Shown: piece by piece, positions 1,101-20,505 of the stretch | Layout of the letters: each line of letters starts with the position of its first letter | Numbering within the stretch: position 1 is the first letter of the stretch | Assembly (NCBI RefSeq): GCF_020905295.1 | Contig: NZ_JAJJMM010000001.1 | Coordinates: 4,340,001 to 4,404,000 of the forward strand | Reading direction: 5' to 3' | DNA length: 64,000 nucleotides | DNA from: Flavobacterium piscisymbiosum | Lineage (GTDB): Bacteria; Bacteroidota; Bacteroidia; Flavobacteriales; Flavobacteriaceae | Made by a program: the position numbers and the translations under genes | The notes under the pieces: model-generated | Database searches by the model: none | Told to the model about the DNA's origin: nothing | What the model saw: only the letters and a program-made list of their open reading frames with translations

Positions 1101-1113
1101 TTTTATATTGTTT

Positions 1114-4849: not shown

Positions 4850-5042
4850 TATATGTATTCAGGTTCAGGTTTTAGCAGCCGGGAAATTGGTGATGGTGAT
4901 GTTTTTATTGATGAAAACGGTTTAATCATTTGTTTCATTTGATAGTTTCATAAAAAAGGGCGTTAACATTGGGAAAACTGGGATAAATTGGGAAAGTTAA
5001 CGGCGTTGCGGACTTCACGGCAGGGATTTAATTTAAAAATTA

Positions 5043-5190
5043 TATCTTTGCAGGGAATGAAGCATTCTGGCATATTTTCCCTTTAGCCTTAAGGCGCATG
5101 AAGGATCGAATAAAGAAGGGATGTAGCATTTAAAGGTAATTATTAGATTAAAGAATAGTAAAACCCGGGCTCTTAGTTCCGGGTTTTTTT
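5043..5190 (+). ncRNA. Candidate small RNA between promoter-like box and terminator
   Basis: The box TATCTTTG (5043-5050) matches the Bacteroidota -7 consensus TAnnTTTG, although no well-spaced TTG is visible upstream. About 110 bases later lies a strong intrinsic terminator. Between them there is no credible ORF, but there is a perfect GCCTTAAGGC palindrome at 5086-5095. A transcript of about 130 nt is predicted. I did not recognise the SRP core or another named RNA. It could instead be the 3' tail of a longer transcript from the synthase gene. Confidence 0.35.
5160..5190 (+). terminator. Intrinsic terminator
   Basis: A 9-bp perfect stem (5160-5168 with 5179-5187, core AAACCCGG/CCGGGTTT) is followed by a T-run to 5190. 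It ends either the synthase transcript or the candidate small RNA upstream. Confidence 0.8.
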
Positions 5191-5283
5191 ATTGCTTGGA
5201 CCAGGGCTTCGGCAAAAGTGAGCCTGTTTTTTCGGCAGGCAAAACATAAACGCCTTTATACTATCATAACACAGGCAGGAAGT

Positions 5284-5664
5284 TTACAGGACCTCTCCCT
5301 TGATTTTCAGGCCAACCCTTCCACCGGGCTCATTTACGGCATTGCTTTCAACGATAATGGTCTTGCGTATCGGGCCGGTGGGCATATTTTTATACTTAAT
5401 GCTGATCTTGCCTTTTTTGCCCGGCATAATGGCCATGACAGGTTTGGTGACCATGATGTAGCCTGCTGTGGATGCCGCCCCTGTAATTAGTAAGGGCGCG
5501 TCTCCTGTATTTTTAAATTCAAAAGTCCCTTCTGTGATATCTGCTTTTGAAATCTGGCCGTAATCTATCGTATTATCGGGAGCTGAAAACTCAATTTTAG
5601 GCCCCTTTTGGCAATAAGCCGCTGTACTTACTAATATTAGAAAAAAAAGTGTGATGTTTTTCAT
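5284..5664 (-). CDS. Secreted DUF1573 domain protein
   Basis: Exported protein of 126 residues with a DUF1573 (ASPM/SPD-2-like, immunoglobulin-type) domain. The start chosen is the ATG at 5664, because the following MKNITLFFLILVSTAAYC is a clean signal peptide; an ATG eight codons upstream only adds a hydrophilic tail. Domain signatures visible: IDYGQISKADITEGTF, FKNTGDAPLLITGA, a PGKKGKISIKY stretch and KTIIVESNA. The SCGC cysteine motif common in the family is replaced by STAGY, so a cysteine-based function is lost here. Function unknown; such domains often mediate protein contacts at the cell surface. Confidence 0.8.
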   Translation of the reverse strand: MKNITLFFLILVSTAAYCQKGPKIEFSAPDNTIDYGQISKADITEGTFEFKNTGDAPLLITGAASTAGYIMVTKPVMAIMPGKKGKISIKYKNMPTGPIRKTIIVESNAVNEPGGRVGLKIKGEVL

Positions 5665-5859
5665 TTTGAAATATTTAAAGTTTTTCAAATATAGTTTTCT
5701 TTACTTAAAATCAAACTATTATTTGGTAAGTACGTGCCATTTTAGCGAACTTCATTGGTGCATATTGGCAATTTTCCGGCATATTATACGTTTTGTGTTA
5801 TAACCTTTTTTGGTATCGCGCCTAATTTTGAGTATATTACAGGTCCAAAAAAAAGAGCT

Positions 5860-6360
5860 ATGAAAAAATTGCCAGTAATAATACTTCTTGTATGGATGTG
5901 TATTTCATGTCAAAGAAAAAAAGAGTCAGGACTTGAGAATAGCAAAAATGCTGTAGTATTAAAAGATTCGGTATTCAGCAATGCCCAGTCCATCAGGGAG
6001 TGGGAATTATCGGTACAGGGGCTTTGGGACAGCGAAATGCTCTGCCGCAAAGCCAACTGCGGGCTGTATGTAATCGGGGATCGGAGAAATGAGCTCTGGG
6101 AGTTTGTAAAGGACTCCGTCAGGGTGTATGCCAATGGCCTGAACAGCAAAAAGCTGCTCAATGTATTCAGGGCAATACACAATGGGGATAAAATCATCCT
6201 GGAATCCAGTCCTGACAGCCTCTCGGAGAGTCGCCTGAAAATCAAAGTTGTTCTGGATGATATAACGGATAATGTTATTAAAGGCACCCAGACCATTACC
6301 ACAGAGGAAAACTGTACTTCGGTATTTGATCTGGAGCTCACCAGGACAAAAAAAAGGTAA
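5860..6360 (+). CDS. Putative lipoprotein of unknown function
   Basis: Predicted lipoprotein of 166 residues. The ATG at 5860 is chosen because it is followed by MKKLPVIILLVWMCISC, a lipoprotein signal with a lipobox-like cysteine at residue 17; an upstream in-frame alternative would hide it. The mature part is hydrophilic, with several charged beta-like segments and two cysteines near the middle that could form a disulphide. I do not recognise the family. A -7-like box TAATTTTG lies at 5823-5830. Codons are richer in G+C than in the core genes further right. Confidence 0.65.
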   Translation: MKKLPVIILLVWMCISCQRKKESGLENSKNAVVLKDSVFSNAQSIREWELSVQGLWDSEMLCRKANCGLYVIGDRRNELWEFVKDSVRVYANGLNSKKLLNVFRAIHNGDKIILESSPDSLSESRLKIKVVLDDITDNVIKGTQTITTEENCTSVFDLELTRTKKR

Positions 6361-6459
6361 ATTGTTTTAGTATTATGGCGCCCCTGAAAATTCATACTGC
6401 TTATCTCAGCCATACTATCGAGCACACAGGGTGTAACGCCCGATGCGGCTAAGAGAACC

Positions 6460-6520
6460 AGAAGCCCAAACAAGTAAACAAACTGCTTAAAGGGCTTCTA
6501 TCGCTATTGTTTACTTTTTT
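6460..6520 (+). other. Interleaved inverted repeats before a T-run (pseudoknot-like)
   Basis: AGAAGCCC (6460-6467) pairs with GGGCTTCT (6492-6499). GTAAACAA (6474-6481) pairs with TTGTTTAC (6507-6514). The order is A-B-A'-B', so both stems together form an H-type pseudoknot topology rather than a simple hairpin. An eight-base T-run follows directly. It sits between the tail-to-tail genes ending at 6360 and 6525 and may serve as an unusual terminator. No computation of stability was possible. Confidence 0.45.
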
Positions 6521-6524
6521 TTGT

Positions 6525-6983
6525 TTACTTTTTACCGGCTTTATCACGATATTGTTTTAACAATTTTCGGTTAAAATCCTTTTCAGATTTTATGAGCCTT
6601 ACTATTTTTTTCGCTGGGAGTACCTGGCGAAGGCTGCTGAGATAATTTTTTCTCAACAGATAGAGTGCCCTGTTGGTGTTTTCCATTTGTGATAAAAGTG
6701 CTCGGGCCTGTTTCTCTGAAGTAGAATTGATAGTATCATCGCTGAGTTTTTGCAGATAGGTTTCCATTTTTTCATGCCGCAGCTTATACTTTTTCTCTTC
6801 ATATGCATGGTAAAGAGGCCAGAATTTCTCAGCCTCTGCCGAAGCAAGTTCAAGCTCTTCATTTAAAAAAGAAATTTTATAGGCTTTAATTTTTTCGAGT
6901 TTTTGGTTTGTTTTTTCATTTTGCGCATAAAACGGGAAACTGGTCAAAAATAGAAGTATCGGCAGTATGTTTTTGATTTTCAT
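6525..6983 (-). CDS. Periplasmic helical protein, 'sensor of ECF sigma factor' type
   Basis: Exported all-helical protein of 152 residues. A signal peptide (MKIKNILPILLFLTSFPFYA) is followed by long amphipathic helices rich in Lys, Glu and Leu, including EELELASAEAEKFWPLYHAYEEK, the pattern of Bacteroidota Spy/CpxP-like proteins often annotated as sensors of ECF sigma factors. In the usual context it follows a sigma factor gene; no sigma factor gene is visible nearby, so it stands alone. A role in sensing or buffering envelope stress is inferred from the family only. Confidence 0.7.
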   Translation of the reverse strand: MKIKNILPILLFLTSFPFYAQNEKTNQKLEKIKAYKISFLNEELELASAEAEKFWPLYHAYEEKKYKLRHEKMETYLQKLSDDTINSTSEKQARALLSQMENTNRALYLLRKNYLSSLRQVLPAKKIVRLIKSEKDFNRKLLKQYRDKAGKK

Positions 6984-7478
6984 TTTTTATAGTTTTTGTT
7001 TTGAAATTAAATTTCCAATTTTCAATAAGGGCAGCTGCAGTTTAAATCTTTTGCTATAGGATTAGATAGGCTTTAAAGTAAAAGGTTTAATATAAGTGCT
7101 TCACGTATTGCTGTTATAAATACGATCAGGCGTACTGATGGCTTTGCAGTTTCTAAAGCAGGGGAGGTATGAAATGGTATTTAGTTTTTCGGGCTGCAGT
7201 TCTTGGCAGATAATTTTTTAAGACAGTTATTGTTTTTTAGGAGCTTTTCCCCCTATATGTCTCACCTCAGCGTTAGCGAACGGGCGAAGCAATCGGGGCT
7301 AGCGCTGCCGGGATCACTGTCTTTGTCTTGGAGAATTGCATATCCACACAAATTTGTTTTATTAAATTTCCGGTATATTCAATTTTTATTTATGACATTA
7401 CGCAATGAATAGGTAAGTAATCACGGTGATTTTATAAAAAAAAACAGTAAATTTAACAATATTTTAAAAACAGGAACG
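6984..7478. other. Non-coding gap with one dispersed repeat copy
   Basis: Apart from the repeat copy at 7230-7302 I see no supported gene here. Short open frames overlap the repeat and have no family features. The remainder is A+T-rich with no clear promoter match. Confidence 0.5.
7230..7302 (+). repeat. Flavobacterial palindromic repeat, family 1 copy A
   Basis: Starts with TTTTTTAGGAGCTTTTCCCC and ends with GCAATCGGGGCTAG. It shares the block CAGCGTTAGCGAAC plus GGCGAAGCAATC with copy B at 8860. The inner hairpin present in copy C is missing, so this is a shortened member. Confidence 0.75.
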
Positions 7479-7697
7479 ATGATTAAATTTTGGTTAATTA
7501 CAATTTCGATCTTTATTCTCTCAACCTATATACTGGCTAAAGTAACTTTAAAATCAAATAGGGAACAAACCGGTGAGAGGATTTGGCGCTATGGCAATGG
7601 AAGGTCTGTTTATTGGCGTTTACTTACTTTGTGCAGTATTGGAATAACTATGGCACTAATGTTTATTTTTTATTGGATCGGAATACCTATTGTGTAA
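7479..7697 (+). CDS. Small two-helix membrane protein
   Basis: Hypothetical 72-residue protein with a hydrophobic segment at residues 3-21, a charged middle (KSNREQTGERIWRYGNGRS) and a second hydrophobic segment at 48-70. This hairpin-like topology and a plausible A-rich start context support a real gene, but no family is recognised. It is flanked by repeats and by a divergent-composition membrane gene, so it may be an accessory gene. Confidence is limited by length. Confidence 0.45.
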   Translation: MIKFWLITISIFILSTYILAKVTLKSNREQTGERIWRYGNGRSVYWRLLTLCSIGITMALMFIFYWIGIPIV

Positions 7698-7815
7698 AAA
7701 CATTAAAGAGGCTGTTATTTCTGCTCCTGACTAACTAATTTTTCAAACACAAGACCATTTTTAAATTAAGCCGAAGTCGCGGCTTGATGGTAGCGCGCTT
7801 TGGCTGATGGTTGTC

Positions 7816-8538
7816 TTATTTTCTTTCGCTTTTTTGTTTTAATAATTGTCTAATTGACGTTAAATGTCCAAACAATACAATTGGAACTATAAAAGTTGGC
7901 AACCAACTAAATGGAAAATTCAAAATCGCTATGTTGGGTTGTTCAAAAGCAAATTTTTGTATTGGTGATGGTGCTGAAAATAAAGCATTCACAACAATAT
8001 TTATTAAAAGTCCAAGACAAATAAAGTTCCAGGTCAGTATTGCATTTGGGTTAATTTTCATTTTAGTCAAACCAAAGTAAGCAATGACCGGAGCTGTTAT
8101 TCCTGCTATAATGTCAAAGTTCCGGCCTTCAAAAGTCATAAGCTGCGGAATTGCTTTGTTGATAAAAAGCCAAAACAAAACTATTTCAACCGGTACCCTA
8201 ACAATGTTTAAATAGGTCAAGTTTTTGAGAGGCAAACTGTCAATAAATTGTCTTCCTTTTAAAGTTGCAACCAATAGAATGATTGTCAAAATAGTTGGTA
8301 AGATCCCTATCAGCATTATTTTTGGCGGCAAGGAGTTTGTGTCAGTGTTATAAAAACTTTCTAAAGTCAAAACAGCTTGAATAATCAGCCAAATTGTAAG
8401 ACCGATAGAAATTGGTGCTGCTTTTTTTCGGGTCAATTCAGAATTCGAGCTTCTAATAGCCCAAATGAAAAGTAGCAAAGTCCCAACTGATGTAAGCACA
8501 AAAGCCAGTGATATGTATGCAGGTAAATTCTCTATCAT
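7816..8538 (-). CDS. Seven-helix membrane protein of unknown function
   Basis: 240-residue integral membrane protein with about seven hydrophobic helices, e.g. residues 6-26, 42-60, 75-95, 108-130, 140-158, 166-188 and 210-230. Loops are short. No catalytic motif is seen and the family is not recognised. Its composition is A+T-rich compared with neighbours. Its upstream region (8584-8693) is a close copy of the region upstream of the HEPN-like gene at 12297-12962, which suggests both arrived as promoter-carrying cassettes. Confidence 0.7.
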   Translation of the reverse strand: MIENLPAYISLAFVLTSVGTLLLFIWAIRSSNSELTRKKAAPISIGLTIWLIIQAVLTLESFYNTDTNSLPPKIMLIGILPTILTIILLVATLKGRQFIDSLPLKNLTYLNIVRVPVEIVLFWLFINKAIPQLMTFEGRNFDIIAGITAPVIAYFGLTKMKINPNAILTWNFICLGLLINIVVNALFSAPSPIQKFAFEQPNIAILNFPFSWLPTFIVPIVLFGHLTSIRQLLKQKSERK

Positions 8539-8583
8539 TTTTTCTGTTTGTTGAAATGAAGGCTAACTCATTTATACCAGCCA

Positions 8584-8693
8584 TAAAACGGCACAAATAC
8601 TAGTTTTTTTTAGCTGGCTTTGTGCAATTAGTAATTGCTTTTTTTTTAGCGAATATAATAATAATAAACTAAATTTCTTAGCTGCGCACCAAT
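8584..8693 (-). repeat. Upstream repeat shared with the 12.96-kb gene, copy 1
   Basis: About 110 bases that align, with small gaps, to 13004-13108. Shared blocks include TAAAA-GGC-C-AATAC, AGC-GGCTTTGT-CAATTAGTA, TTTTTTAGCGAATATAA and ATACTAAAT-like stretches. Both copies lie 40-50 bases upstream of a minus-strand start codon. Read on the minus strand each contains TATATTCG, a near match to the -7 box TAnnTTTG. Confidence 0.7.
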
Positions 8694-8859
8694 AGGTACC
8701 AAGGAGCTATTTTAATTGCCTTGGCTGCTGTTACTATAGCTGGAAACAGCTGATCTAGTTTGAGGCTGGATTGATCCAGTATCAGGAATTGCCGGGGAAT
8801 CTGATTAGAATTGATCATCTGGTCAATTATATGTAGTATTATTTTTTAGGTTTAATTAG

Positions 8860-8940
8860 TTTTTAGGAGCTTTTCCCGCTATATGTTTCACCCCAGCGTT
8901 AGCGAACTGGCGAAGCAATCTTTTGTGCCGAAGCGCAATT
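8860..8940 (+). repeat. Flavobacterial palindromic repeat, family 1 copy B
   Basis: Begins TTTTTAGGAGCTTTTCCCGC and contains GCAATCTTTTGTGCCGAA, but the right half of the palindrome (complementary arm and CGGGGCTA end) is missing. It is therefore a left-half copy, joined at about 8940 to coding-like minus-strand DNA. Confidence 0.75.
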
Positions 8941-9048
8941 TCCTGCAGGTATTCCTCGACATTTGACAGGTTCTTTGTTTTCTTTTTCAAGCTTCACCAT
9001 AGCGCTGACCAGCTCCTTGATGTTTTCCAATCGGTCGTAAACTAAAAT
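8899..9048 (-). pseudogene. Possible gene remnant with coiled-coil-like frame
   Basis: The minus strand has an open frame without a start codon. It reads like helical protein sequence (YDRLENIKELVSAMVKLEKE and so on) before running into family 1 repeat sequence and a stop at 8899-8901. It looks like the end of a DNA-associated or coiled-coil gene cut by the repeat. The evidence is only composition and open frame. Confidence 0.25.
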
Positions 9049-9160
9049 TCATATGTTTTTTCTTAAACTATTTTTTTAACTTTACGTAATCGTTAACCCT
9101 TGCACGGATATGCTTCGATGGTTTATCAACTTGAAAAAGCTAATTTATTTATATTAGCAT

Positions 9161-9187
9161 TTGCATATTTTTAAATTTTTATCTTTA
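9161..9187 (+). promoter_or_regulatory. Promoter of the response-regulator gene
   Basis: TTG at 9161-9163, 16 bases, then TATCTTTA at 9180-9187, one base off the Bacteroidota consensus TAnnTTTG. Transcription would start near 9194, leaving a leader of about 11 bases before the ATG at 9205. Confidence 0.6.
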
Positions 9188-9204
9188 CTTAAAAATACAC
9201 TACT

Positions 9205-9657
9205 ATGGCCTTGTCCCAACAAAATTTCCAGAGACATATTTATATAGCAGATGATGACCAGGATGACAGAATCTTCTTTACCGAGGCCATGCTGGAAGTT
9301 AATCCTGAGGTTGTTTTAAAAGAAGCACAGTATGGGGCGGAACTCATGGAGATCCTCCATACGCTGTCCGATCCGCTTCCCGATGTTATTTTTCTGGATT
9401 TGAACATGCCCAAAAAAAACGGCTTTGACTGCCTGGAAGAAATAAGAAAATTAAAAGGGGCCATAAGAGAGGTAAAGGTTATTATGTTTTCCACCAGCAG
9501 TGATCCCCTGGACATTGACAGGGCACTCGAGCTTGGGGCCAGTTTTTATGCAGTGAAGCCCAGCGGGTTTGATACCCTGAAAGCATTCCTGGCTGAGGTC
9601 CTACAAATGGACTGGCGCTGCTGCAATAAGGACAGTGGAAAATTTCGGTTAATTTAG
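9205..9657 (+). CDS. Single-domain response regulator
   Basis: Cytoplasmic receiver-domain protein of 150 residues with no output domain. The acidic pocket is D16-D18, the phospho-acceptor is D65 in FLDLNMP, the switch residue is S96/T97 in MFSTSS, and K118 precedes P119, so all catalytic residues are present. It resembles the stand-alone receivers common in Flavobacterium that are phosphorylated by hybrid or orphan kinases. No kinase gene is adjacent. The C-terminal tail (DWRCCNKDSGKFRLI) is unusual and may reflect a changed 3' end. Confidence 0.9.
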   Translation: MALSQQNFQRHIYIADDDQDDRIFFTEAMLEVNPEVVLKEAQYGAELMEILHTLSDPLPDVIFLDLNMPKKNGFDCLEEIRKLKGAIREVKVIMFSTSSDPLDIDRALELGASFYAVKPSGFDTLKAFLAEVLQMDWRCCNKDSGKFRLI

Positions 9658-9689
9658 CTGTTGTAAACCTTCCTTTCAATTTCATCAAA

Positions 9690-9908
9690 TCAGCCGTTTA
9701 TTTTGTCCTTATGGTACTGGGCAAGCCATTTTTCCATTTTCTCAAGCAGCTGGATTTCCTTCGGGTCGCCCGTGGGATCTGAAAGTCCTTTGATAGTGCG
9801 GCTGTAATTGAATTTCCCCTGCTCAAAGCGGCACGTAAATTTTGGCAGTTCATTGTGGGAAACCATCCAGCTGTCGGGGGCTATTTTTTTTATTTCAAAC
9901 TTTTTCAT
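9690..9908 (-). CDS. Small conserved-looking hypothetical protein
   Basis: Hypothetical 72-residue cytoplasmic protein with alternating charged and aromatic residues (APDSWMVSHNELPKFTCRFE), ending in a helical segment. A -7-like box CAAAATTA (TAATTTTG on the coding strand) lies at 9962-9969, about 54 bases upstream of the start. It converges on the response-regulator gene. No family is recognised, but codon use and start context look genuine. Confidence 0.55.
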   Translation of the reverse strand: MKKFEIKKIAPDSWMVSHNELPKFTCRFEQGKFNYSRTIKGLSDPTGDPKEIQLLEKMEKWLAQYHKDKING

Positions 9909-10091
9909 ATCTCATTCCCGTTCAAAGCTGCTATGACAGCTTTAAATCTACTGTCAAAAGGCAAAATTAGCGGTTTTATTTTTATTGCAGGGCGCTTTGA
10001 TGTTAAGTTAGCGGCCGTACCAGAAATTGAATCGGCTGGTAGTGGGGACTGCCCGAGAAGCTACGCCTTAAAAACAATAAAAATTAATCCA

Positions 10092-10130
10092 AAAAAAGCC
10101 TCCTAAATGCAGTCATTTAGAAGGCTTTTC
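10092..10130. terminator. Bidirectional intrinsic terminator
   Basis: Stem of 16 pairs with one mismatch (10094-10109 with 10114-10129, loop CAGT). Seven A residues on the left give a T-run for the minus-strand gene ending at 10162; four T residues follow on the right. Confidence 0.8.
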
Positions 10131-10161
10131 AATTTTGTAATAGGCGGTAAGAGGTATATCT

Positions 10162-10386
10162 TTATTCCTCATCATCCTCATCGGCCTGGGACTCATCAAG
10201 AGTCCTTCTGTCTGCATCGTCATGGTCCAGTTCGGTGGGCTGGTGGTCGGCAGATCTTTCATCATCATAGTGCTGGTTCACTCCCGGATCGGTGTGCTCC
10301 ATGGTTTCTGAATGGATGGATTCTTCCCCCATGTGATACATGCTGTCTTGCTGAGAATACGTATCGTAGTTTTCTTGTGGTATCAT
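10162..10386 (-). CDS. Small acidic disordered protein
   Basis: Hypothetical 74-residue protein, strongly acidic and polar (many Asp, Glu, His, Gln), ending in QADEDDEE. No hydrophobic core or signal peptide, so it is probably intrinsically disordered. A strong terminator lies just downstream at 10092-10130, which supports transcription. It resembles in style the acidic protein encoded by the interrupted gene at 10939-11493. Such hydrophilic proteins are often stress-related, but that is only an inference. Confidence 0.55.
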   Translation of the reverse strand: MIPQENYDTYSQQDSMYHMGEESIHSETMEHTDPGVNQHYDDERSADHQPTELDHDDADRRTLDESQADEDDEE

Positions 10387-10938
10387 AATGTTATAATTTA
10401 AATAGTTTGTAATTTCTTTAAAGCTCTTCTTCCTGTTTCGGACTTATTGCGGCTTAGTGGAAGAAGGTAGGGTAAAATTAAAAATTAGAGGATGGATTAA
10501 ATTACAGCCTGGCTTTGTTTAATTATATTATTTTCAGTTGGTTATGAGATATCAGATTGTTTTTTAGGAGCTATTCCCGCTATTCGTTGCAATCTTTTGT
10601 GCCGAACACCGGCACAAAAGGATTTTCACTGCTATCGGGGCTAAGGATTGAATCCATTTTTATGTTTTGGTTTTAGTTTTTCAATACTAATTAATAAGCT
10701 ACAAAATTATTTTTTTCTACTATATTGGTGCCTAGCTCCTTGATTGTCTGATAGCTATTTTATAAATGCAAATCATTATTCTGTAAAAAAAAATATTACT
10801 ATCCTCTTTACATTTGATAAAGGACAATCAACAAAGGATACACAAGGGAAATGCTAACAAGCGCGGCAATGCCAGCAGACCTGCGAAGACACACTTCTTT
10901 AAAAAAACGATAGTAAAAATTTAATTAAAAAAAATAAA
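10387..10938. other. Non-coding gap with family 1 repeat
   Basis: Contains the most complete family 1 palindrome (10559-10643). The remaining DNA is A+T-rich and shows no supported gene. It separates two divergent genes for acidic proteins, so promoters for both are expected here, but I see no clean consensus pair. Confidence 0.5.
10559..10643 (+). repeat. Flavobacterial palindromic repeat, family 1 copy C (most complete)
   Basis: Outer ends TTTTTTAGGAGC and CTATCGGGGCTAA flank a perfect 10-bp inner hairpin: CTTTTGTGCC (10594-10603) and GGCACAAAAG (10611-10620), loop GAACACC. The outer parts form an imperfect stem. This copy defines the family in this window. Confidence 0.8.
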
Positions 10939-11493
10939 ATGATGAATTCAGACAAACCGGAAAATTACGGTCAGGATGACAAGAATTTTTAAAACGCAGA
11001 CACAGGTAAACAGGGACAACAAAAAACTACCTCCACAGGTCATACCTTTACAGAAAATGCCCAGCCCGATTATGGAAATGACCTGAGTACCGAAGAGATC
11101 AGCAGGGAATCCGGTCACCATGATAAGCAGGATAGCAAGATTCCAAATTCAGACGAGCAAAACAGTGATCCAAACGGTAATCCTTATGATTCAGAGAATC
11201 TTGACAATGAATCGGACAGTGAATCGAAAGATATAACCGAACAGGACATTGAAGAGGATCTTATAAATAATGATCCCTCTGAAGGTTTTGAAACTGAAAT
11301 TGATGCTCCTCAGAGCAATGAGGCTGAAGGTGAGCCCTTTAAAACCATTGAACCAGACCAGGATAATCCCGTTCATAAGGAATTCGAAATAGGGGCACTG
11401 GGCAATGAGGAGCTTCGAGAAGATGAACGCGCCCGAGATGAAACAGACGGTGGTGCGCCCGGCAATATTAAACCTTCCCAGCGAAAATTTTAA
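10939..11493 (+). pseudogene. Acidic hydrophilic protein gene with in-frame stop
   Basis: ATGs at 10939 and 10942 open a frame beginning MNSDKPENYGQDDKNF, then TAA at 10990-10992. The same frame then stays open for 166 codons to a stop at 11491-11493. It encodes a highly acidic, Gln/Asn/Glu-rich sequence (e.g. EQDIEEDLINNDPSEGFE) of the same style as the N-terminal piece. No shift is needed, so a single nonsense change is the simplest explanation. No in-frame ATG lies just after the stop. An efficient terminator follows at 11516-11546. Readthrough or a sequencing error are alternatives. Confidence 0.65.
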
Positions 11494-11515
11494 TGTATCC
11501 AGATTTGATGCCAAT

Positions 11516-11546
11516 AAAAAAACCGTTATTATTAACGGTTTTTTTT
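11516..11546. terminator. Bidirectional intrinsic terminator
   Basis: CCGTTA (11523-11528) and TAACGG (11533-11538) with a TTAT loop, flanked by seven A on the left and eight T on the right. It follows the interrupted acidic-protein gene and faces the minus-strand gene ending at 11634. Confidence 0.8.
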
Positions 11547-11633
11547 ACAGGATCTTGCGATTACTCTGCTTCTTTACACTATGATTTATCCCAGTTGATC
11601 AAATCCGTTGTAGCTGTTGCTGCAGGCAGCATT

Positions 11634-12206
11634 TTATATTTCGTTACTGCGTAGTTTCTCTTTCCACTTATTTAGAGCTTCAGCATTGCTTCCAAAATTA
11701 GACTCTGTATCAAATTCATTTAGAGCTTTGTCCCTGGCATCTAAATGTTTCTCTATAATTCCGTTAACTTTATTGACATTTCCCGCATTTATTTTTCCGC
11801 TGTTAATCTCTTTTTCTGATTTTTTGGCAAAGTAATGTGAAATGTTATATTTCAGCTGTAGGTAATCCAGTAATTGCTGGGATTTATATTCGGGTTTAAC
11901 CCACGATAAATCCCTTCTGATTCCTCCATAGGATTCAACAGTGATAGTTCCTGTCCAGACATTTACTTTTTTGGTAAAAACACCAAATGTCAATTCCGGA
12001 TGGACATGCAGATCTTTGCTTGATTCAGGTGGCATTTTAAAATCAGACCATTCCAAAATAGCTTTTGACCTTGCAGATATAGTATCGCCCTGGTTTGCTT
12101 TGGTCATTTCCGAAACAACCCTGTCCCATTTTTTCTGGTTCTTCCCCTGGCCAAAAGTAAAAAGTGTCAGGCAGAGGCCTAAAATAGTTAATGTTAATTT
12201 ACTCAT
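11634..12206 (-). CDS. Secreted protein of unknown function
   Basis: Exported 190-residue protein. The signal peptide (MSKLTLTILGLCLTLFTFGQG) is followed by a soluble domain with WDRVVSEMTKANQGDTISARSK and a beta-like middle region (LTFGVFTKKVNVWTGTITVES), then a helical, Lys/Asn-rich C-terminus with coiled-coil character. No cysteine is left after signal cleavage. I do not recognise the family. It stands alone between a terminator and the HEPN-like gene on the same strand 90 bases upstream. Confidence 0.65.
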   Translation of the reverse strand: MSKLTLTILGLCLTLFTFGQGKNQKKWDRVVSEMTKANQGDTISARSKAILEWSDFKMPPESSKDLHVHPELTFGVFTKKVNVWTGTITVESYGGIRRDLSWVKPEYKSQQLLDYLQLKYNISHYFAKKSEKEINSGKINAGNVNKVNGIIEKHLDARDKALNEFDTESNFGSNAEALNKWKEKLRSNEI

Positions 12207-12296
12207 TTTTTCAATTTTTTAGTTGAGATTATATCAGCAGTATTTTTTGATAAAGCAGTTTTACACTGTTATAAGTCTTCTGCAGCGGTGTATCTG

Positions 12297-12962
12297 TTAG
12301 TGCAGCTTATTTTTTTCGGTTATTTTCTTCGTTAATAAACTATAGTATGATCTTCTAATCAAAGTTCCTAAGCCTTTTAATTCCTCAATATTTATAGTTT
12401 TTGCACCCTTTTCCTTTTGAGCTGTGTAAAGTTCGTTGAATCCATCTTCAATTTGCTTTATAATTTCCAATGTATCGGTTTTAAATTTTTTAAGCATTTC
12501 ACCTTCTACATCTTTGGATATCTTTTCTTTTATTTTTTCAATGAGATTTACGGTGGTTTTCAATACGTCTCCTGCGAGTTCTATGGTAGCTTTATGCAAT
12601 TTCTCTTCTGTTGGTAATTCAGCATTTTGAGGAAAGATTTTCAGAATAAAAGTTGCTTTTCCTTCTAAATAATTAAAACAGGATTCATAATTTTTTGCAT
12701 TGTAATTATGCATAAATTGATTACGAATTTCCATGAATGTCTGGAATTTCTTCTTTTCATTTTTGTCTAAAGCACCGATGTCAATTAATAGATCTATTTT
12801 TTGATTAAATGATAGATTTCCACTTTGATTTCCAAATGACTTAGTTTCTTCATAGTTCTCTATACCTAAAAGTTTAGAAAGAAATATTGAGGTGAAATTT
12901 TCTATCAAAAGTGAGTATTGAAGAATTTCTTGTCTATTTTCTACACCAATGTCTAATTTCAT
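12297..12962 (-). CDS. HEPN-like helical protein with RNxxxH motif
   Basis: Hypothetical cytoplasmic all-helical protein of 221 residues. The segment FQTFMEIRNQFMHNYNAK holds R80-N81-(x3)-H85, the R-x4-H arrangement of HEPN and MltR-like folds, where it forms an RNase active site or a structural element. The rest (ATFILKIFPQ, GDVLKTTVNLIEKIKEKI) is amphipathic helix. No antitoxin-like partner gene is adjacent. The upstream 110 bases match those of the membrane gene at 7816-8538. It could be an RNase, a regulator or a non-catalytic relative; only the fold is suggested. Confidence 0.6.
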   Translation of the reverse strand: MKLDIGVENRQEILQYSLLIENFTSIFLSKLLGIENYEETKSFGNQSGNLSFNQKIDLLIDIGALDKNEKKKFQTFMEIRNQFMHNYNAKNYESCFNYLEGKATFILKIFPQNAELPTEEKLHKATIELAGDVLKTTVNLIEKIKEKISKDVEGEMLKKFKTDTLEIIKQIEDGFNELYTAQKEKGAKTINIEELKGLGTLIRRSYYSLLTKKITEKNKLH

Positions 12963-13003
12963 GAAGTTTGGGTTTTGTTGCCACTGACTAATTTATATTA
13001 ACG

Positions 13004-13108
13004 GTAAAATGGCGCCAATACAACTTTTTTAGCGGGCTTTGTTCAATTAGTATGATTTTTTAGCGAATATAAGAATAATATACTAAATCTTTGAGATGTG
13101 CAGTAATA
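13004..13108 (-). repeat. Upstream repeat shared with the 8.54-kb gene, copy 2
   Basis: Aligns with 8584-8693 over about 105 bases with short gaps, including TTTTTTAGCGAATATAA and the GGCTTTG block. It lies upstream of the HEPN-like gene and, on the minus strand, carries the same near-consensus -7 box TATATTCG. Confidence 0.7.
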
Positions 13109-13353
13109 GCTGTAAATCACTTATTTTACTTGTTCTGGGGCTGTTTTTAATTTAGTTAAAAATCAGCTGCCTGTTTTTTTTTGCCGAACTAAGACGCCAG
13201 CGGTCTTGAGGCCACGGGAACATCTTTTTCAATTCACCCCAAGCTGACTACTTTTCTTGTTGCTCTTTATCCATAGTATCCCCATTGCTTCCCTTTTTCT
13301 TTTTACCCGAGACCCTGTATGCTTTTGTTTTATTTCAGGAGCAAAGGTAGTCC

Positions 13354-13456
13354 GTGTCCTTGAGCAAAAGCAAGGCCGGGGCCTTTCAGGTCTTGTCAAA
13401 AAATCTCCACCCATCCGGGTTGTTTTTTTTGCCAGAGCCTTGCTTTTGCCGGACAC
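13354..13456. repeat. Long imperfect inverted repeat preceding the ssb module
   Basis: GTGTCC (13354-13359) and GCAAAAGCAAGGC (13364-13376) face GCCTTGCTTTTGC (13437-13449) and GGACAC (13451-13456). Arms are perfect except for an asymmetric bulge of four bases against one. The 60-base interior is G+C-rich followed by a T-run. Its position just before ssb and DUF932 suggests a control or processing site of the mobile element; a regulatory RNA or transfer/replication site are both possible. Confidence 0.6.
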
Positions 13457-13683
13457 TCACCTTTTTATGCTCATGAAACAAAACATAGCATACTGCGGCT
13501 CTTTAGACGAATAAAAAAAAATGTCAGAAATGAGAATTGAAATATTGAAAAAAGCAATGATGAAACAAAACAGCGCCTGCTCTCATTGCCGAATAAATTT
13601 CAAAAAAAAAGAAAAGAAAAAAAAGTCAAAAGTAAAAAAGCGGGGGCGGGAAAAAGAAAGTAATAATTTAAAAACTAGAAATC

Positions 13684-14112
13684 ATGAACATTACAGGAAG
13701 ATTGACAAAAGATGCGAAAGTAAGCACATTGTCAGACAGCAGACAGGTAGTAAATTTTTCGGTAGCCATAAACGAGAGCTACAAAAACAGAAAAGGGGAC
13801 AAGGTGGAGCAGACCACATTTTTTGATTGCGCCTACTGGATAAGCCCAAGGGTTGCCGAGTGGCTGACCAAAGGCACGGTGGTGGAGCTCACTGGCATGG
13901 TAAGCGCAAGGGCGTGGACAGGCAATGACGGGGAGCCTCGCGCGGGGCTGAACTTCAATACCTCGAATATCAAACTGCACGGGGGCGGGAAGAAGTCCGA
14001 AGGTGCGCAGGCGGTTCAAAATGTGCAGGCGGTTCAAAGTGGACAGAATGCGGTGCAGGGCGAAAGCAAAAAGGTCACCGTAAAAGAGCCTGAGGACGAC
14101 ATCCCGTTTTAA
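13684..14112 (+). CDS. ssb: Single-stranded DNA-binding protein
   Basis: 142-residue SSB. An OB-fold (residues 1-102) starts MNITGRLTKDAKVSTL, with VNFSVAINESYKN and TTFFDCAYW, the typical DNA-contact strands. A Gln/Ala-rich linker (about 108-128) leads to the acidic tip EPEDDIPF that recruits partner proteins. The short form and its position before DUF932 and PRTRC genes identify it as the accessory SSB of a plasmid or conjugative element rather than the chromosomal copy. The linker contains a short imperfect tandem repeat (QAVQNVQAVQSGQ). Confidence 0.93.
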   Translation: MNITGRLTKDAKVSTLSDSRQVVNFSVAINESYKNRKGDKVEQTTFFDCAYWISPRVAEWLTKGTVVELTGMVSARAWTGNDGEPRAGLNFNTSNIKLHGGGKKSEGAQAVQNVQAVQSGQNAVQGESKKVTVKEPEDDIPF

Positions 14113-14169
14113 CGGCAGGCATTAAAGCGTTTTAAACAATTTTATTTCAAACTTTTAAAATCAAATATC

Positions 14170-15243
14170 ATGGCACATAATATCAATTACAACAGCGAGA
14201 CAGGAAAGTATTCTTTTTTCAGCGTAAAGGAAAAAGCATGGCACGGGCTCGGGCAGATTGTGGAGCAGTACCCGACAAGCTCAGAAGCCATCAGACATGC
14301 AGGGCTTGATTACGAGGTGGCTAAAAGCCCTTTATACACAAAAGCATCGGGCATTATCCAAACTGCGGGCGGTATTGAAATGGGCAGTACTGAATTGGCA
14401 GTACCTGACTGCTTTGCCACCATCCGCACCGACAGTAATGCGGTTTTGGGCGTTGTTGGGAAAGACTACCAAATCGTGCAGAACCGTGAGGCGTTCAGCT
14501 TTTTTGATGCGATTGTCGGGGGCGGTGACGGTATACTGTACGAAACGGCAGGGGCACTCGGGCAAGGCGAACGCATCTTTATTACCGCCAAACTCCCTGA
14601 TTATATCAGGGTCGGAAATGGGGATGATGTGACTGAAAAGTACATTTTCCTGACCACCTCCCACGACGGAAGCGGAAGCATCACGGCGGCTTTTACGCCC
14701 ATTCGCATCGTATGCCAAAATACCCTTAACGCTTCACTCCGCTCGATGAGCAACGTGGTGCGCATCCGCCATACATCAGGGGCAAAACAGCGCCTTGATG
14801 ATGCCCATAAAGTAATGGGACTGGCGGACAGGCTGAGCAGTCAGTTAGAAGGTATTTTCAATGAATGGGCTAAAGTGAAGGTAACAGATACGCAGGTTAA
14901 GAAATTGATTCAATTGGCATTATGTCCAAATACCGAAACACTCGCTTTAATTAGAAAAGGGGCTGAAGATGAAGTGTCTACCGTGTTTAAAAATACCGTT
15001 GAGGACGCTTTTGCGTACGCCATGGCAAGCGAATCTCAGCAGATGGAGACCACTAAAGGCACGCTTTTCGGGGCTTATAATGGCGTGACGGGCTACTATC
15101 AGAATGTGCGAAAATACAAAGACAGCGAAGCCAAACTGCAGTCCATTGTCATGGGAGGCACAGCCCAGGGAAAAGCCCAAAAGGCGTTTGAACTGTGCAC
15201 GGCTTTTCAGGCGGATGGCGAGCAAATCCTAAACCTGAATTAG
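14170..15243 (+). CDS. DUF932 (TIGR03299-type) phage/plasmid protein
   Basis: 357-residue cytoplasmic protein of the DUF932 family, widespread on phages, plasmids and conjugative elements; molecular role unknown. The N-terminus has the family pattern WHGLGQIVEQYPTSSEAI, followed by PDCFATIRTDSNAVLGVVGKDYQIVQNREAF and VCQNTLNASL with the conserved late IRHTSG. Length is normal and the frame is intact. It follows ssb by 57 bases and precedes the damaged PRTRC E region, consistent with one polycistronic accessory module. Confidence 0.9.
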   Translation: MAHNINYNSETGKYSFFSVKEKAWHGLGQIVEQYPTSSEAIRHAGLDYEVAKSPLYTKASGIIQTAGGIEMGSTELAVPDCFATIRTDSNAVLGVVGKDYQIVQNREAFSFFDAIVGGGDGILYETAGALGQGERIFITAKLPDYIRVGNGDDVTEKYIFLTTSHDGSGSITAAFTPIRIVCQNTLNASLRSMSNVVRIRHTSGAKQRLDDAHKVMGLADRLSSQLEGIFNEWAKVKVTDTQVKKLIQLALCPNTETLALIRKGAEDEVSTVFKNTVEDAFAYAMASESQQMETTKGTLFGAYNGVTGYYQNVRKYKDSEAKLQSIVMGGTAQGKAQKAFELCTAFQADGEQILNLN

Positions 15244-15359
15244 GCAGGCAGATAACCAAAGGCTGTTGCAAACCGTGACAGCCTTTACAATCAGGAGCTA
15301 GTGATGCGATAGCAGGGTTGGACATCTGCACAATTGAATAACATAAAAACGCAGGGATT

Positions 15360-15635
15360 ATGGCAAGGAAGGACAGCAACAATTTTGAGTTTATCCTGTA
15401 TCTCTACAATGAATTTGTCAGCAAACACCGCAGTATAGGTAAGGAAGCCCGTATGTATTGGCATATTTTGGACAAGTATATAGAAGTGGGGCTTTCAAAA
15501 AAAAGCCAGAAAGCCGAAAAAAAGTACGCCCAAAAGCTTACAGCCATCATCAGGGAGGCAGTAGGGGAATGGAACACCCATCTGCTTATCTTAAAAGGGG
15601 GGAACAGCCGAAGAACTCGACAACGGTTTTTTTGA
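15360..15635 (+). CDS. Small mobile-element protein, 3' end fused by deletion
   Basis: 91-residue frame. Residues 1-70 look like a genuine helical protein (NNFEFILYLYNEFVSKHRSIGKEARMYW, and IIREAVGEWN). From about residue 74 the frame runs into sequence that, shifted by one base, encodes PRTRC protein E; the tail NSRRTRQRFF is therefore out-of-frame PRTRC E DNA. The natural 3' end of this gene and the 5' part of PRTRC E appear to have been lost together. Its own function is unknown; it sits where conjugative elements often carry a small ORF after DUF932. Confidence 0.6.
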   Translation: MARKDSNNFEFILYLYNEFVSKHRSIGKEARMYWHILDKYIEVGLSKKSQKAEKKYAQKLTAIIREAVGEWNTHLLILKGGNSRRTRQRFF

Positions 15636-16104
15636 GAATATCACAACGCCCATGCAGTGCGCTTCGGGTCTAATGGTGGACATGGAAGGCTATATGAAAC
15701 AGCTTGAAGATACCAAAAAGCAGTCGGCTATGGAAAAAGAGAAAGCCGATACCAAGAAAAAAGAACAGGAAGCCAAAGACAAAAAGTTCAGCGAAGCTAT
15801 GGCGAAAGCCCATGAACTGGAAAAAGAAGGGAAATTTCGTGAGGCATGGATAAAAGTGCCCGAAATACATGAATTTCCACTAAAGGCGGAGGAAATACGC
15901 AGACGTAAATCCGAGCTGTCGGCAAAGTTTGCGCCCGATCTGTTCGGCAGTACAACAGAAACCGTAAAGACCAAACCGCCTCGAGAGGCACTCTTTCCTG
16001 ACTATAGCAATGGCAATGTGCAAGAGTCCGAAACGGACGAGGAAGAAACAGAGGCAGAGGACATGGAAAACTTGGAAGACGAGAACGAAGAGCAAGGATA
16101 TTAA
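15595..16104 (+). pseudogene. PRTRC system protein E, 5'-truncated
   Basis: From 15601 this frame reads GTAEELDNGFFENITTPMQ, then MVDMEGYMKQLEDTKKQ, a Lys/Glu-rich coiled coil, EGKFREAWIKVPEIHEFP and a C-terminal acidic tail. That matches the C-terminal two thirds of Bacteroidota PRTRC protein E. The N-terminal domain is missing: an in-frame TAA lies at 15592-15594, and the upstream frame differs by one base at a run of six G (15597-15602). Translation could restart at the ATG at 15652 and give a 150-residue fragment. PRTRC genes occur on plasmids and integrative elements; their biochemical role is not established. Confidence 0.7.
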
Positions 16105-16121
16105 TTTAAAATAAAAAAGTC

Positions 16122-16340
16122 ATGTTATTAGCTACACAATTACAGCGGGTTTTTATACTCAAAGACAAGGGACAGGAAATAAGGCTTTCCGACCCCGAGC
16201 CAAGATGGAGCACCGAAGCGGTACTGAATTTTTATGCCCCGACCTATCCGATACTGACCACCGCCAAAATATCAGCCCCTGCCATTAGGGACGATGCGGT
16301 GGAGTACCGATTTGAAACGGTAATGGGAACAAAAGGCTAA
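16122..16340 (+). CDS. PRTRC system protein C
   Basis: 72-residue protein matching PRTRC protein C over its whole length: it begins MLLATQLQRVFILKDKG, continues with RLSDPEPRW and AVLNFYAPTYPILTTAKI, and ends YRFETVMGTKG. Frame and length are intact. It follows the PRTRC E remnant by 17 bases. The PRTRC B, A (ThiF-like) and D (ParB-like) genes that normally complete the cassette are absent, so the protein probably has no partners here. Function unknown. Confidence 0.88.
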   Translation: MLLATQLQRVFILKDKGQEIRLSDPEPRWSTEAVLNFYAPTYPILTTAKISAPAIRDDAVEYRFETVMGTKG

Positions 16341-16355
16341 CCAAAATTTAAAGCC

Positions 16356-17489
16356 ATGAATTATGCAACAGACAATCATATCGGGAACAGCGAGACTGCC
16401 CGAGCGAAAAAGACAAAAACAGCTTCACGTACAGCTCGCAGGGTTTATGGGTTGGATGCAGAGACCCAAAGACGCAGGCGAGGTGCAGAAAGACAAACCA
16501 AGGTCAGTTCCTGCGGGGATGCTACCGATGGTTTTCTAAAGGTTTCATTTCTGCCCATATTACAGAAGAATAAAACGGTACAGGCTTGTCAGGATGTTTC
16601 CAAAATGGAAAATGATTTTTATAGCTCTCTTGACAGTCTAGCTGAGTATTACCATATTGTGCCGATGGCGACCTGTCATTTTGAATATCCCTATAATATG
16701 GCATTGGCTGTATGGGATTTGGATGAGAAACTGAAAAAAAGTGTGGGGAACTTTTCCGAACTGCGGTTATTGCAGGATAGCCACATAACGTATCTGCTAA
16801 GCGAGGAAAAATTCAATACAGGCACAACGTTGTATTATATCCCCATAGAACCGATTTATCAAATGCTCAGAGAACCGAAGCACAAAAAGAATGCTCACCT
16901 GCTTTTATCGGTCTGCTCGTATCTGTATCATAGTGCCGATGTACCGTATTTCAGACAGCAGGGCAGTTATCTCTACTGGCTTTATGAGATGCACAGGGAA
17001 TGGACAGAAGAGGAGCAGGACAGGGAAGAAAACGAGAGGTATATTCGGGAGTTTGACAAGGCGGAATTTATCGGGGACTATATGGGAAAGAAAATTTTCA
17101 GCCCCATGAACCTGAACTTTTTTGAAAAACGGCTTAACAGTTTTAAAAGCCATGATGCCTTTGATAAGCAGTGTTTGGATATAGGCAAAAAAGCTTTTGC
17201 CATATACACCGATTATCCCAACGAGGGTATTTTTCGAAATGCTCCCATGAATGACAGGGAGGAAGACGAAGAAACGGAAAGTGAGAGCATCGGAATGGAA
17301 AAGTACATTTCCTTTATTTCCGATACCAAAGGATGGCTGTATGAAAGCATTGAAGAAGGTATCAACAATGAATTTAACGAGTACGGGGCAATGGACGAAC
17401 CGACCATTATAAAATGCTTTGACGGAAGGGAACTGACAGAGAACAGCCTTGATTTTGAAAGCCGATTGTTTGCCCCAATGTTGCAATAA
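16356..17489 (+). CDS. PRTRC F-like protein, altered 3' end
   Basis: 377-residue protein, likely the large uncharacterised gene that follows PRTRC C in Bacteroidota elements (PRTRC F position). Residues 1-60 are Arg/Lys-rich and low in complexity. The body contains HFEYPYNMALAVWDLD, TLYYIPIEPIYQMLRE, LLLSVCSYLYHSADVPYFRQ and FFEKRLNSFKSHDAFD, and looks folded. Near the end SLDFESRLFA is followed by only PMLQ and a stop; relatives as I recall them continue for about ten more residues. The last bases belong to a junction with the HAD gene on the other strand. Confidence 0.5.
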   Translation: MNYATDNHIGNSETARAKKTKTASRTARRVYGLDAETQRRRRGAERQTKVSSCGDATDGFLKVSFLPILQKNKTVQACQDVSKMENDFYSSLDSLAEYYHIVPMATCHFEYPYNMALAVWDLDEKLKKSVGNFSELRLLQDSHITYLLSEEKFNTGTTLYYIPIEPIYQMLREPKHKKNAHLLLSVCSYLYHSADVPYFRQQGSYLYWLYEMHREWTEEEQDREENERYIREFDKAEFIGDYMGKKIFSPMNLNFFEKRLNSFKSHDAFDKQCLDIGKKAFAIYTDYPNEGIFRNAPMNDREEDEETESESIGMEKYISFISDTKGWLYESIEEGINNEFNEYGAMDEPTIIKCFDGRELTENSLDFESRLFAPMLQ

Positions 17490-18727: not shown

Positions 18728-18919
18728 ATGAATTTTAAAAGTGTAATTATGGAGAAGGATATTGATTACAGTAACTCAAAGTTGACCCCAGAAAAAGCTT
18801 TGCAAATGCTTCGATCTGAGGGGCTAGATGTCACAATTGAACAGGCAGAGGAAATCTTGTATTTCTTGAGAATAATTGCTAATATCGCTGTGTTAAAACA
18901 TTTAAGCAAAAGAAAATGA
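18728..18919 (+). CDS. Small recombinase-associated protein
   Basis: 63-residue (or 56, from the ATG at 18749) helical protein with TPEKALQMLRSEGLDVTIEQAEEIL. Small proteins of this type precede serine recombinases on Bacteroidota elements and are sometimes misannotated as PTS components. The stop overlaps the recombinase start (ATGA at 18916-18919), so translation is probably coupled. A helix-turn-helix or directionality-factor role is possible but not shown by the sequence. Confidence 0.7.
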   Translation: MNFKSVIMEKDIDYSNSKLTPEKALQMLRSEGLDVTIEQAEEILYFLRIIANIAVLKHLSKRK

Positions 18920-20466
18920 GTAAGATAGCAGACTTATATATTAGAGTGAGTACCGACGAGCAGGCAGAAAAAGGCTTCTCCCAACGGAATCAGGAGGAAA
19001 TGCTAAGAAAATATTGCAGTATAAACCAAATACAGATACGTAATGTAGTTTATGAAGATCATTCAGCAAAAACTTTTAACAGGCCTCAATGGAAAAAATT
19101 TCTTGATGATGTAAAAAAAAATAAAAACAAAATTAATTTGGTTCTTTTTATGAAGTGGGACAGGTTCAGCCGTAATGCGGGTGATGCTTACCAAATGATA
19201 AATGTTTTAAGAAAATTGGGTATAGAGCCGCAGGCGATAGAACAGCCACTTGATCTGAGTGTTCCGGAAAACAAAATGATGCTAGCATTTTACCTGGCCG
19301 CACCCGAGGTTGAAAACGACCGAAGGGCATTGAATACTTTTCAGGGGCTTAGAAGGGGAAAGAAGGAGGGAAGGCATATGGGTATGGCCCCTTATGGTTA
19401 TGCTAATAAAGTTACAGAAGATGGAAAAAAATATATTGCCATTGTGCCTGAGAAAGCCATAAAAGTTATATGGGTGTTTGAACAGATTGCGAAAAATATT
19501 TTTAGTACTGAATCTATTTACCAAATGGCCAAAGAGAAAGGCTTTGGGATCTCTAAGAACAACTTGTGGCTTATTATAAGAAACCCTCTTTATTGCGGAA
19601 AGATCGTTGTACCTCAGTACAGAGATGAAGAGGCGAGATTAGTCAATGGCCAGCATGATGCAATTATTAGCGAAGGATTGTTTTACCAAGTACAGGATAT
19701 CCTTGATAGTAAATCACGGACATATCGACCGAAAATTAAAACAATAGAAAATTTTCCCCTTAGAGGTTTTTTTATGTGTCCTAAATGCGGACAGAAGTTA
19801 ACAGGAAGCAAATGCAAAGGAAGAAATAAGTATTACTACTATTACCATTGTGATAAAGTTTGTAAATGGAGAATAAACTCTGAGATAGCAAATAAAACAT
19901 TTAAAGTGCATTTAAATAAATTTAAACCTTTACCCGAAGTGAAGAAACTATATTCAGCAGTTCTGCTTGAAGGCTACAGGGAGCATACTGGATTAATCAT
20001 TAATGAAAAAAAGAAATCTCTTGAACAAATTGCAGTTTATGAAAAGAAACTGACCGTTGCCAGAAATTTATTAGTCACCGAGAAAATCGACGCTGAAGAC
20101 TATCATCTTATGAAAAATGAATACAATGCTGTTATTAGCAAGTTAGAGAAAGAGCTTGGAAATGTAGATGACGATAGAGAGAATATAGAGTATCTAACAA
20201 GCACGGGACTGGAAAACCTTTTAAAGCTAGGCGAGGCCTTTGATGGCGGGACTTTAGCTGATTCCAGGGAGATAATTGGTTTAATTTTCCCTGAAAATTT
20301 TACATTTTCAGAAAACAAAATCCGCACCGCCCGAGTGAACGAAATCATCAACTGTATTTATCTGGTAAACAATAGGTTACGGGCAAAAAAAAACGGGACA
20401 AAAGATGATATTTTTCTTTTGTCCCGAGTAGTGACCTCGACTGGATTCAAACCAGTAACCTCTTGA
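18916..20466 (+). CDS. Large serine recombinase, tRNA-Arg integrated
   Basis: 516-residue site-specific recombinase. The N-terminal resolvase domain (1-150) has YIRVSTDEQ with the catalytic serine at about residue 11 and MKWDRFSRN; a recombinase domain follows (MAPYGYANKV), then a zinc ribbon (CPKC at about 291-294 and the later cysteines) and a coiled-coil region (about 360-430). The last 12 codons are the complement of the 3' half of tRNA-Arg, and the preceding codons contain the tRNA terminator hairpin. The protein tail TSTGFKPVTS is thus dictated by the attachment site. It probably mobilised the DNA to its left. Confidence 0.93.
   Translation: MSKIADLYIRVSTDEQAEKGFSQRNQEEMLRKYCSINQIQIRNVVYEDHSAKTFNRPQWKKFLDDVKKNKNKINLVLFMKWDRFSRNAGDAYQMINVLRKLGIEPQAIEQPLDLSVPENKMMLAFYLAAPEVENDRRALNTFQGLRRGKKEGRHMGMAPYGYANKVTEDGKKYIAIVPEKAIKVIWVFEQIAKNIFSTESIYQMAKEKGFGISKNNLWLIIRNPLYCGKIVVPQYRDEEARLVNGQHDAIISEGLFYQVQDILDSKSRTYRPKIKTIENFPLRGFFMCPKCGQKLTGSKCKGRNKYYYYYHCDKVCKWRINSEIANKTFKVHLNKFKPLPEVKKLYSAVLLEGYREHTGLIINEKKKSLEQIAVYEKKLTVARNLLVTEKIDAEDYHLMKNEYNAVISKLEKELGNVDDDRENIEYLTSTGLENLLKLGEAFDGGTLADSREIIGLIFPENFTFSENKIRTARVNEIINCIYLVNNRLRAKKNGTKDDIFLLSRVVTSTGFKPVTS
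20385..20426 (-). terminator. tRNA-Arg terminator inside the recombinase gene
   Basis: Perfect 11-bp stem CGGGACAAAAG (20394-20404) and CTTTTGTCCCG (20416-20426). On the minus strand it is followed by a run of nine T (A-run at 20385-20393). It lies just past the tRNA 3' end and is entirely within the coding sequence of the opposite-strand recombinase. Confidence 0.85.
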
Positions 20467-20505
20467 GCCGTAATCAAGTGCGCTATTCAGTTGCGCCACG
20501 AGGCC
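20432..20505 (-). tRNA. tRNA-Arg (anticodon ACG)
   Basis: 74-nt cloverleaf on the minus strand. The acceptor GGCCTCG (20505-20499) pairs with CGAGGTC (20439-20433) with one G-U; discriminator A at 20432; no encoded CCA. The D-stem is GCGC/GCGC, the anticodon stem CTTGA/TCAAG encloses loop TTACGGC (anticodon ACG), and the T-stem ACTGG/CCAGT has loop TTTGAAT. The 3' 35 bases overlap the recombinase coding sequence, so this gene is the attachment site of the element on its left. Confidence 0.95.

Follow-up and report, generated by a model that had tools for sequence, protein, structure and literature searches.

The window, i.e., the whole stretch of 64,000 nucleotides that was analysed, corresponds to G000:C1:4340001-4404000 of the chromosome of its host, Flavobacterium piscisymbiosum. 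It carries a serine recombinase gene that ends inside a tRNA-Arg gene on the opposite strand, and the sequence to the left of this junction appears to belong to an integrated element. The features are as follows (window positions, except for the last).

1-20430, plus strand: right part of the putative element, running up to the attachment core.
18728-18919, plus strand: 63-aa open reading frame (ORF) overlapping the recombinase start; at a guess, a candidate accessory or directionality protein.
18916-20466, plus strand: ORF of the large serine recombinase in its integrated form, 516 aa.
20394-20426, minus strand: terminator hairpin identified by folding, element-borne, as it is kept with the recombinase away from tRNAs.
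20431-20436, plus strand: proposed short attachment core GTGACC (codons 506-507), common to recombinase-tRNA joints and left ends.
20431-20466, plus strand: tRNA-encoded recombinase end, VTSTGFKPVTS-stop, from the position of the ORF relative to the tRNA.
20431-20505, minus strand: tRNA-Arg(ACG), the attachment gene (ARAGORN).
G000:C1:4317653, plus strand: proposed left end of the element, the nearest one found, 22.3 kb left of the window.

A preliminary description had assigned the interval 18728-20505 to the recombinase; an ORF for this protein was found there, and the start at 18728 takes in the separate 63-aa ORF. The latter had no Pfam match and one NCBIfam match far under the cut-off. 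Small ORFs resembling it by eye adjoin the recombinases of two related loci (L008 and L009). The 516-aa protein belongs with the large serine recombinases, as it matched the Pfam families Resolvase (81.8 bits, cut-off 23.3) and Recombinase (49.8 bits, cut-off 21.1), while the zinc ribbon scored 19.1 bits, under the cut-off of 25.3. Among solved structures, its sequence profile matched the TP901-1 and A118 integrase chains, and a fold search returned serine integrase complexes (E 3e-18) with a whole-chain TM of only ~0.2. The NCBIfam scores for CcrB and CcrC (SCC recombinases) and XisF were 113, 94, and 116 bits, against cut-offs of 900, 900, and 375. The closest named match was a protein of F. 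hibernum (97% over residues 8-516). Three PF00239 proteins are encoded in the host genome in total; the second such recombinase (56% identical) lies at tRNA-Leu(GAG), and no tRNA gene was found in the locus of the distant third one (37%).

The recombinase stop codon, TGA at 20464-20466, lies inside the tRNA-Arg gene, as originally described; the identity and strand of the tRNA stood, and its boundary at 20432 was moved by ARAGORN to 20431, the position at which codon 506 (GTG) begins. The terminator was also found within the recombinase coding sequence, as claimed, where it is read as N-G-T-K-D-D-I-F-L-L-S-R. The 11-bp perfect repeat in the DNA folds on the tRNA strand into a 12-bp stem followed by nine U (-17.5 kcal/mol, z -5.56), and none of 200 shuffled sequences was as stable. 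This hairpin was not listed by a simple terminator scan because the loop limit of the scan was 8.

The same arrangement recurs among relatives. One scan of named genomes with peptide words excluding the tail yielded 320 confirmed relatives, the best 80 of which were analysed further, and in 62 of these 80 the recombinase reads in frame into the 3' end of an opposite-strand tRNA gene (Arg 40, Met 11, Val 4, Pro 4, Leu 3). The overlap is thus commoner than chance, with the same frame at five tRNA types. The backward reading of the T-arm gives G-[FLV]-[KE]-P at every tRNA type, and the core common to joints and left ends is GTGACC, or GTAGC for the Met class. One site (L082) was assigned to Met by its anticodon CAT, its sequence being unlike the other Met sites. 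In a further locus (L056), a tRNA-Arg overlap is present out of frame. The overlap was absent in 17 of the 80: two recombinases are frameshifted beside tRNA-Arg (L029 and L075), in L066 the next tRNA is 299 bp further on, and 14 have no tRNA within 600 bp, with causes including N runs (L013), a contig end (L067), and frameshifts (L014 and L038; the motif flagged in L014 is a false match inside its truncated frame). One-base losses in the A run or the hairpin were observed in L029 (the same locus as L216), L056, and L217; these shift the frame, so that the recombinases end in the hairpin and not in the tRNA. The hosts of the relatives are mostly Flavobacterium, and also Sinomicrobium, Niabella, and Sphingobacterium. 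Plasmid and phage records (69 and 373, respectively) contained only distant relatives, all below 60% identity.

The sequence of the opposite end of such elements was first seen after GTGACC at loci lacking a tRNA behind the recombinase. A pattern built on it, searched with up to 3 mismatches, had matches in 64 of 299 Flavobacterium genomes, and its reversed form had none in the same set. Translated in the recombinase frame, these left ends yield V-T-x-T-x-Q-[IF]-[ST]-x-x-F-[ML]-x-D-L-K-[RK]-L-[AST]-Y, with a stop mostly at codons 20-27; a typical tail is VTSTGQISINFMEDLKRLAYYM-stop. Of 48 distinct left ends with up to 3 mismatches, 45 are open in this frame through codon 19, and the three with early stops (L145, L153, and L156) were left out of the codon statistics. 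The left ends of the Met class carry a related tail (VALTGQFSNRFVDDLKKINIFLY-stop in L070, with a close variant in L061). In L030 (11509-11614) and L047 (11530-11635), the tails exceed the usual length and have VAA and IAA, respectively, as their last residues before the stop, which we take to be slightly like degradation tags of the ssrA type.

Where elements are inserted in tandem, the recombinase of one is set against the left end of the next. Eight of 11 such joints that were read, out of a longer candidate list, are open in frame from the recombinase into the tail (L014, L030, L031, L047, L208, L210, L214, and a remnant at 4144498 of the host genome). The joint in L207 keeps the frame and its tail contains a stop, and those in L028 and L211 are out of frame. 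Loci L175, L205, and L206 are the same as L014, L030, and L047; of 14 stretches taken, three had no recombinase by tblastn, one held a small remnant, and three were not joints. Several joint recombinases are broken, as may be expected where recombinases are buried. Seven other recombinases away from tRNAs (L033, L037, L060, L061, L066, L074, and L078) are followed by sequence not recognised as a tail.

What the sequences show directly is the overlap, its shared frame among relatives, tails encoded in frame at the left ends, and tandem joints that are open in frame. Since the left ends and the joints both continue the recombinase frame, the most likely position of attP is within the recombinase gene; upon integration, the tail encoded by the element would then be exchanged for one supplied by the tRNA. 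When the element is a free circle, its recombinase gene would run through the hairpin, GTGACC, and the left end, and encode the conserved tail; the recombinase of the window is predicted to end in VTSTGQISINFMEDLKRLAYWR, with 527 aa in all, and we infer that such a circle forms and encodes this version. Upon integration at the 3' end of tRNA-Arg, the tRNA would follow the core, the enzyme would end in VTSTGFKPVTS (516 aa), and the hairpin of the element would become the terminator of the tRNA. Related recombinases would act likewise at Met, Val, Pro, and Leu tRNAs. GTGACC is a putative core, and the crossover dinucleotide would lie within it. A circle joint, sought in viral contigs in one exact form and one scan, was not found there, and no circular form or deposited attP was seen. 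The expectation of the preliminary description, namely a serine recombinase element at a tRNA 3' end whose C-terminus differs between the integrated and free states, is supported by these comparisons. We consider this anatomy, including the exchange of tails and apart from any switching function, to be quite probable.

With attP inside the gene, a left end carrying a tail would also be expected for the tRNA-Leu element of the host, and this was borne out. Its left end at 76815 (minus strand), 19 kb from the recombinase, scored 18.0 bits and was the sole hit above 6 bits in 100 kb; reversed and shuffled controls of the profile gave at most 5.7 bits, and real coding sequence elsewhere up to 10.8 bits. 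This left end is on the recombinase strand, directly after a terminator-like hairpin and GTGACC, and reads VTLTVQNSNLLLEDLKILNDI-stop.

The tail exchange might alter the activity of the enzyme and so act as a switch, though we lean against this. One guess is that the tail would favour integration and its loss would stabilise the inserted state. The exchanged part lies outside the modelled core, and there it could affect synapsis or directionality, or do nothing; in L047, a tail-bearing recombinase, a low-confidence helix is predicted at 499-526. A neutral reading, to which we give somewhat less than an even chance, accepts the overlap and the exchange as real and holds that attP sits at the 3' end of the gene for want of space, that the working enzyme ends near residue 490, and that the left ends are kept as recombinase-binding DNA rather than as protein. 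It agrees with the AlphaFold model, in which the last core helix spans residues 476-490 and residues 492-516 have pLDDT below 50, and with the many segments that keep left ends and have no serine recombinase. On the other hand, the left ends vary synonymously in the recombinase frame, stop at similar places, and show no frame change over ~60 bp. The pN/pS value in this frame was 0.47 (bootstrap 0.43-0.51, n = 45 left ends, part of the tail being preselected by the search pattern), against 1.74 and 1.08 in the other sense frames and 1.16, 1.08, and 0.45 in the antisense frames; the low value in one antisense frame suits the neutral reading. For codons 18-20 only, which lie outside the pattern, the value was 0.31 (other sense frames 2.23 and 0.58; antisense 1.58, 1.85, and 0.29), and the codon of Tyr19, also beyond the pattern, was TAC in 24 and TAT in 16 cases. 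The L030/L047 pair, found without the tail, gave 0.65, 0.67, and 1.02, and the frames were not separated. A further point against neutrality is that the tails of the Met, Leu, and Arg classes are very different in DNA and yet retain D-L-K.

Tail exchange as the preferred reading also has to be set against two other accounts, both very improbable. According to the first, an extended copy of the tRNA 3' part marks the ends of the element, and the final 25 codons, together with the hairpin, are replaced upon excision. Tyrosine-integrase islands at tRNA genes are normally built in this way (PMC4383910, as far as its accessible text goes), but the genome has no displaced tRNA 3' fragment of such size and the hairpin stays with the recombinase at other loci without a tRNA after it (L014, L028, L030, L031, and L047). 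As the hairpin moves together with the recombinase, a change is possible only from codon 506 (GTG, 20431) onward, i.e., in 11 codons in the integrated form and a predicted 22 in the free form, and not the last ~25 as first proposed. In addition, different elements supply different terminators to the same tRNA; the terminator is that of the element and not, as had been assumed, of the tRNA itself. Terminators of the same classes immediately precede tRNA-Arg at loci where the stretch compared shows no close recombinase, and one class was found before both GTGACC-tRNA and GTGACC-left end: GGCGCC terminators lie before the tRNA in L105 and L116 and before the left end at 4317653 in the host (a GGCGTC variant precedes the tRNA in L095). 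The terminator-tRNA, terminator-left end, and recombinase-tRNA joints look like attB, attR, and attL, with the change-over at GTGACC. The second copy of the 35 tRNA 3' bases that had been expected at the other end did not emerge, as the other copy, at 4160070-4160230 (also in L109), is a complete tRNA-Arg, upstream flank included, at a distance of 200 kb from the first, and the common core is ~6 bp. That copy was rejected as an att site, being a tandem tRNA duplicate as in another genome (G159), where two tRNA-Arg copies lie ~220 bp apart; insertions may therefore have split a tandem pair.

According to the second account, hardly more credible, the recombinase is a resident gene of the chromosome that simply lies next to the tRNA and has lost mobility. 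A close relative does occur in nine of the 30 best tRNA-Arg/apt loci, including that of the window, and in many Flavobacterium species; however, 18 of the same 30 loci show no recombinase within the compared stretch of 1.5 kb or less, one has a remnant, and two have a distant one only. Moreover, relatives occupy other tRNAs, and among the 44 loci, of the 80, that were compared, the upstream cargo differs while the recombinase, the tRNA, and apt remain together.

The pattern gave nine left-end matches in the host genome, all on the recombinase strand and left of tRNA-Arg. A profile scan of 304 kb gave 12 left ends, some decayed, in an array at G000:C1:4123330-4317653 left of tRNA-Arg, and two chance hits of 10.3 and 10.8 bits beyond the tRNA, the latter in coding sequence of the window. 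Most left ends are preceded, by eye, by a terminator hairpin (exceptions include 4150858 and 4315772). Only one serine recombinase lies in the array; hence, most left ends there have no recombinase of their own to receive the tail, and the array looks like segments gathered at one tRNA. The left end at 4317653 was assigned to the element of the window by proximity, which would give a length of ~42.8 kb; a more distant candidate, 4201927, was displaced by the closer 4244122 and 4317653. No conjugation families were detected among the 17 element proteins (18 with the recombinase) scanned inside the window. The cargo at 1-17489 includes a Na+/H+ antiporter, DUF389, a sucrose-phosphate synthase-like fusion, and a response regulator, followed by SSB, DUF932, PRTRC_E, and a ubiquitin-like gene of higher GC.

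As a tentative extension, less likely than not, the tail may act as a position sensor: in its conserved form it would suit integration, and its swap for an antisense T-arm peptide at any of several tRNAs would hold the element in place. The left ends, carried also by segments without a recombinase, would build an integron-like array at tRNA-Arg; with every insertion, the tRNA would acquire another terminator and the recombinase that is buried would regain a tail. The likeness to integrons and to tandem accretion at one site lies in successive segments gathering beside one anchor site. Here, in contrast, the recombinase is of the serine type, the anchor is a tRNA, terminators lie between the segments, and the mobilisation of recombinase-less segments is putative.

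Partial precedents were found in the accessible portions of the literature. In the rumA ICEs of streptococci, the att site lies inside the serine integrase gene, and the excised integrase has another length and C-terminus (PMC4701971); the core is likewise inside the integrase ORF here (codons 506-507, with left ends extending the frame). These ICEs target a protein gene and not a tRNA, and the accessible text describes no conserved exchangeable tail, tRNA terminator, or array. The attP of Myxococcus phage Mx8 also lies inside its integrase gene, and integration creates a new 3' end and an altered enzyme; that integrase, unlike the present serine recombinase, is a phage enzyme of the tyrosine type (PMC6070905, PMC4701971). 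In the integration-dependent immunity of mycobacteriophages, a phage protein receives another C-terminus, and so another state, when the phage integrates at a tRNA (tRNA-Arg in the case of BPs), but this protein is a repressor, the integrases are tyrosine enzymes, and a degradation tag is removed (PMC9262239). Serine recombinases at tRNA genes were called unknown in 2014 (PMC4383910) and are termed rare, in line with the preliminary description, in PMC3218068, where mycobacterial AICEs at tRNA-Leu and phage phiRSM1 at tRNA-Ser use one tRNA each and the accessible text does not mention a recombinase-tRNA overlap. The integrase of a Riemerella island at tRNA-Arg is of the tyrosine type (PMC6764341), a term search of the main text of a survey of large serine recombinases (PMC10083194) did not return the word tRNA, and the accessible parts of PMC12884075, PMC5357655, and PMC5704250 held nothing closer. 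The Islander signature of a classic tRNA island, with a displaced tRNA fragment at the far end, was not seen at this element, and the arrangement was not found described for Flavobacterium in the open-access literature searched. Relative to Mx8 and the rumA ICEs, what looks new is a C-terminal change of the integrase combined with a serine recombinase at tRNAs, the spread of one family over five tRNA types, the conserved tail that can be exchanged, the terminator within the gene, and the arrays that left ends form at a single tRNA.

The choice between insertion and excision by serine integrases is usually ascribed to a separate directionality factor. In these elements, the C-terminus of the recombinase itself should vary with the inserted or free state of the element, which would amount to a built-in control, and proteins differing in their tails alone make such control directly testable. 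For annotation, the G-F-[KE]-P end of such proteins is an antisense tRNA arm and not a protein motif proper. For one family of serine recombinases, several different tRNA genes appear to provide short cores at their 3' ends, and tRNA-Arg may be a natural collecting site for DNA segments in Flavobacterium.
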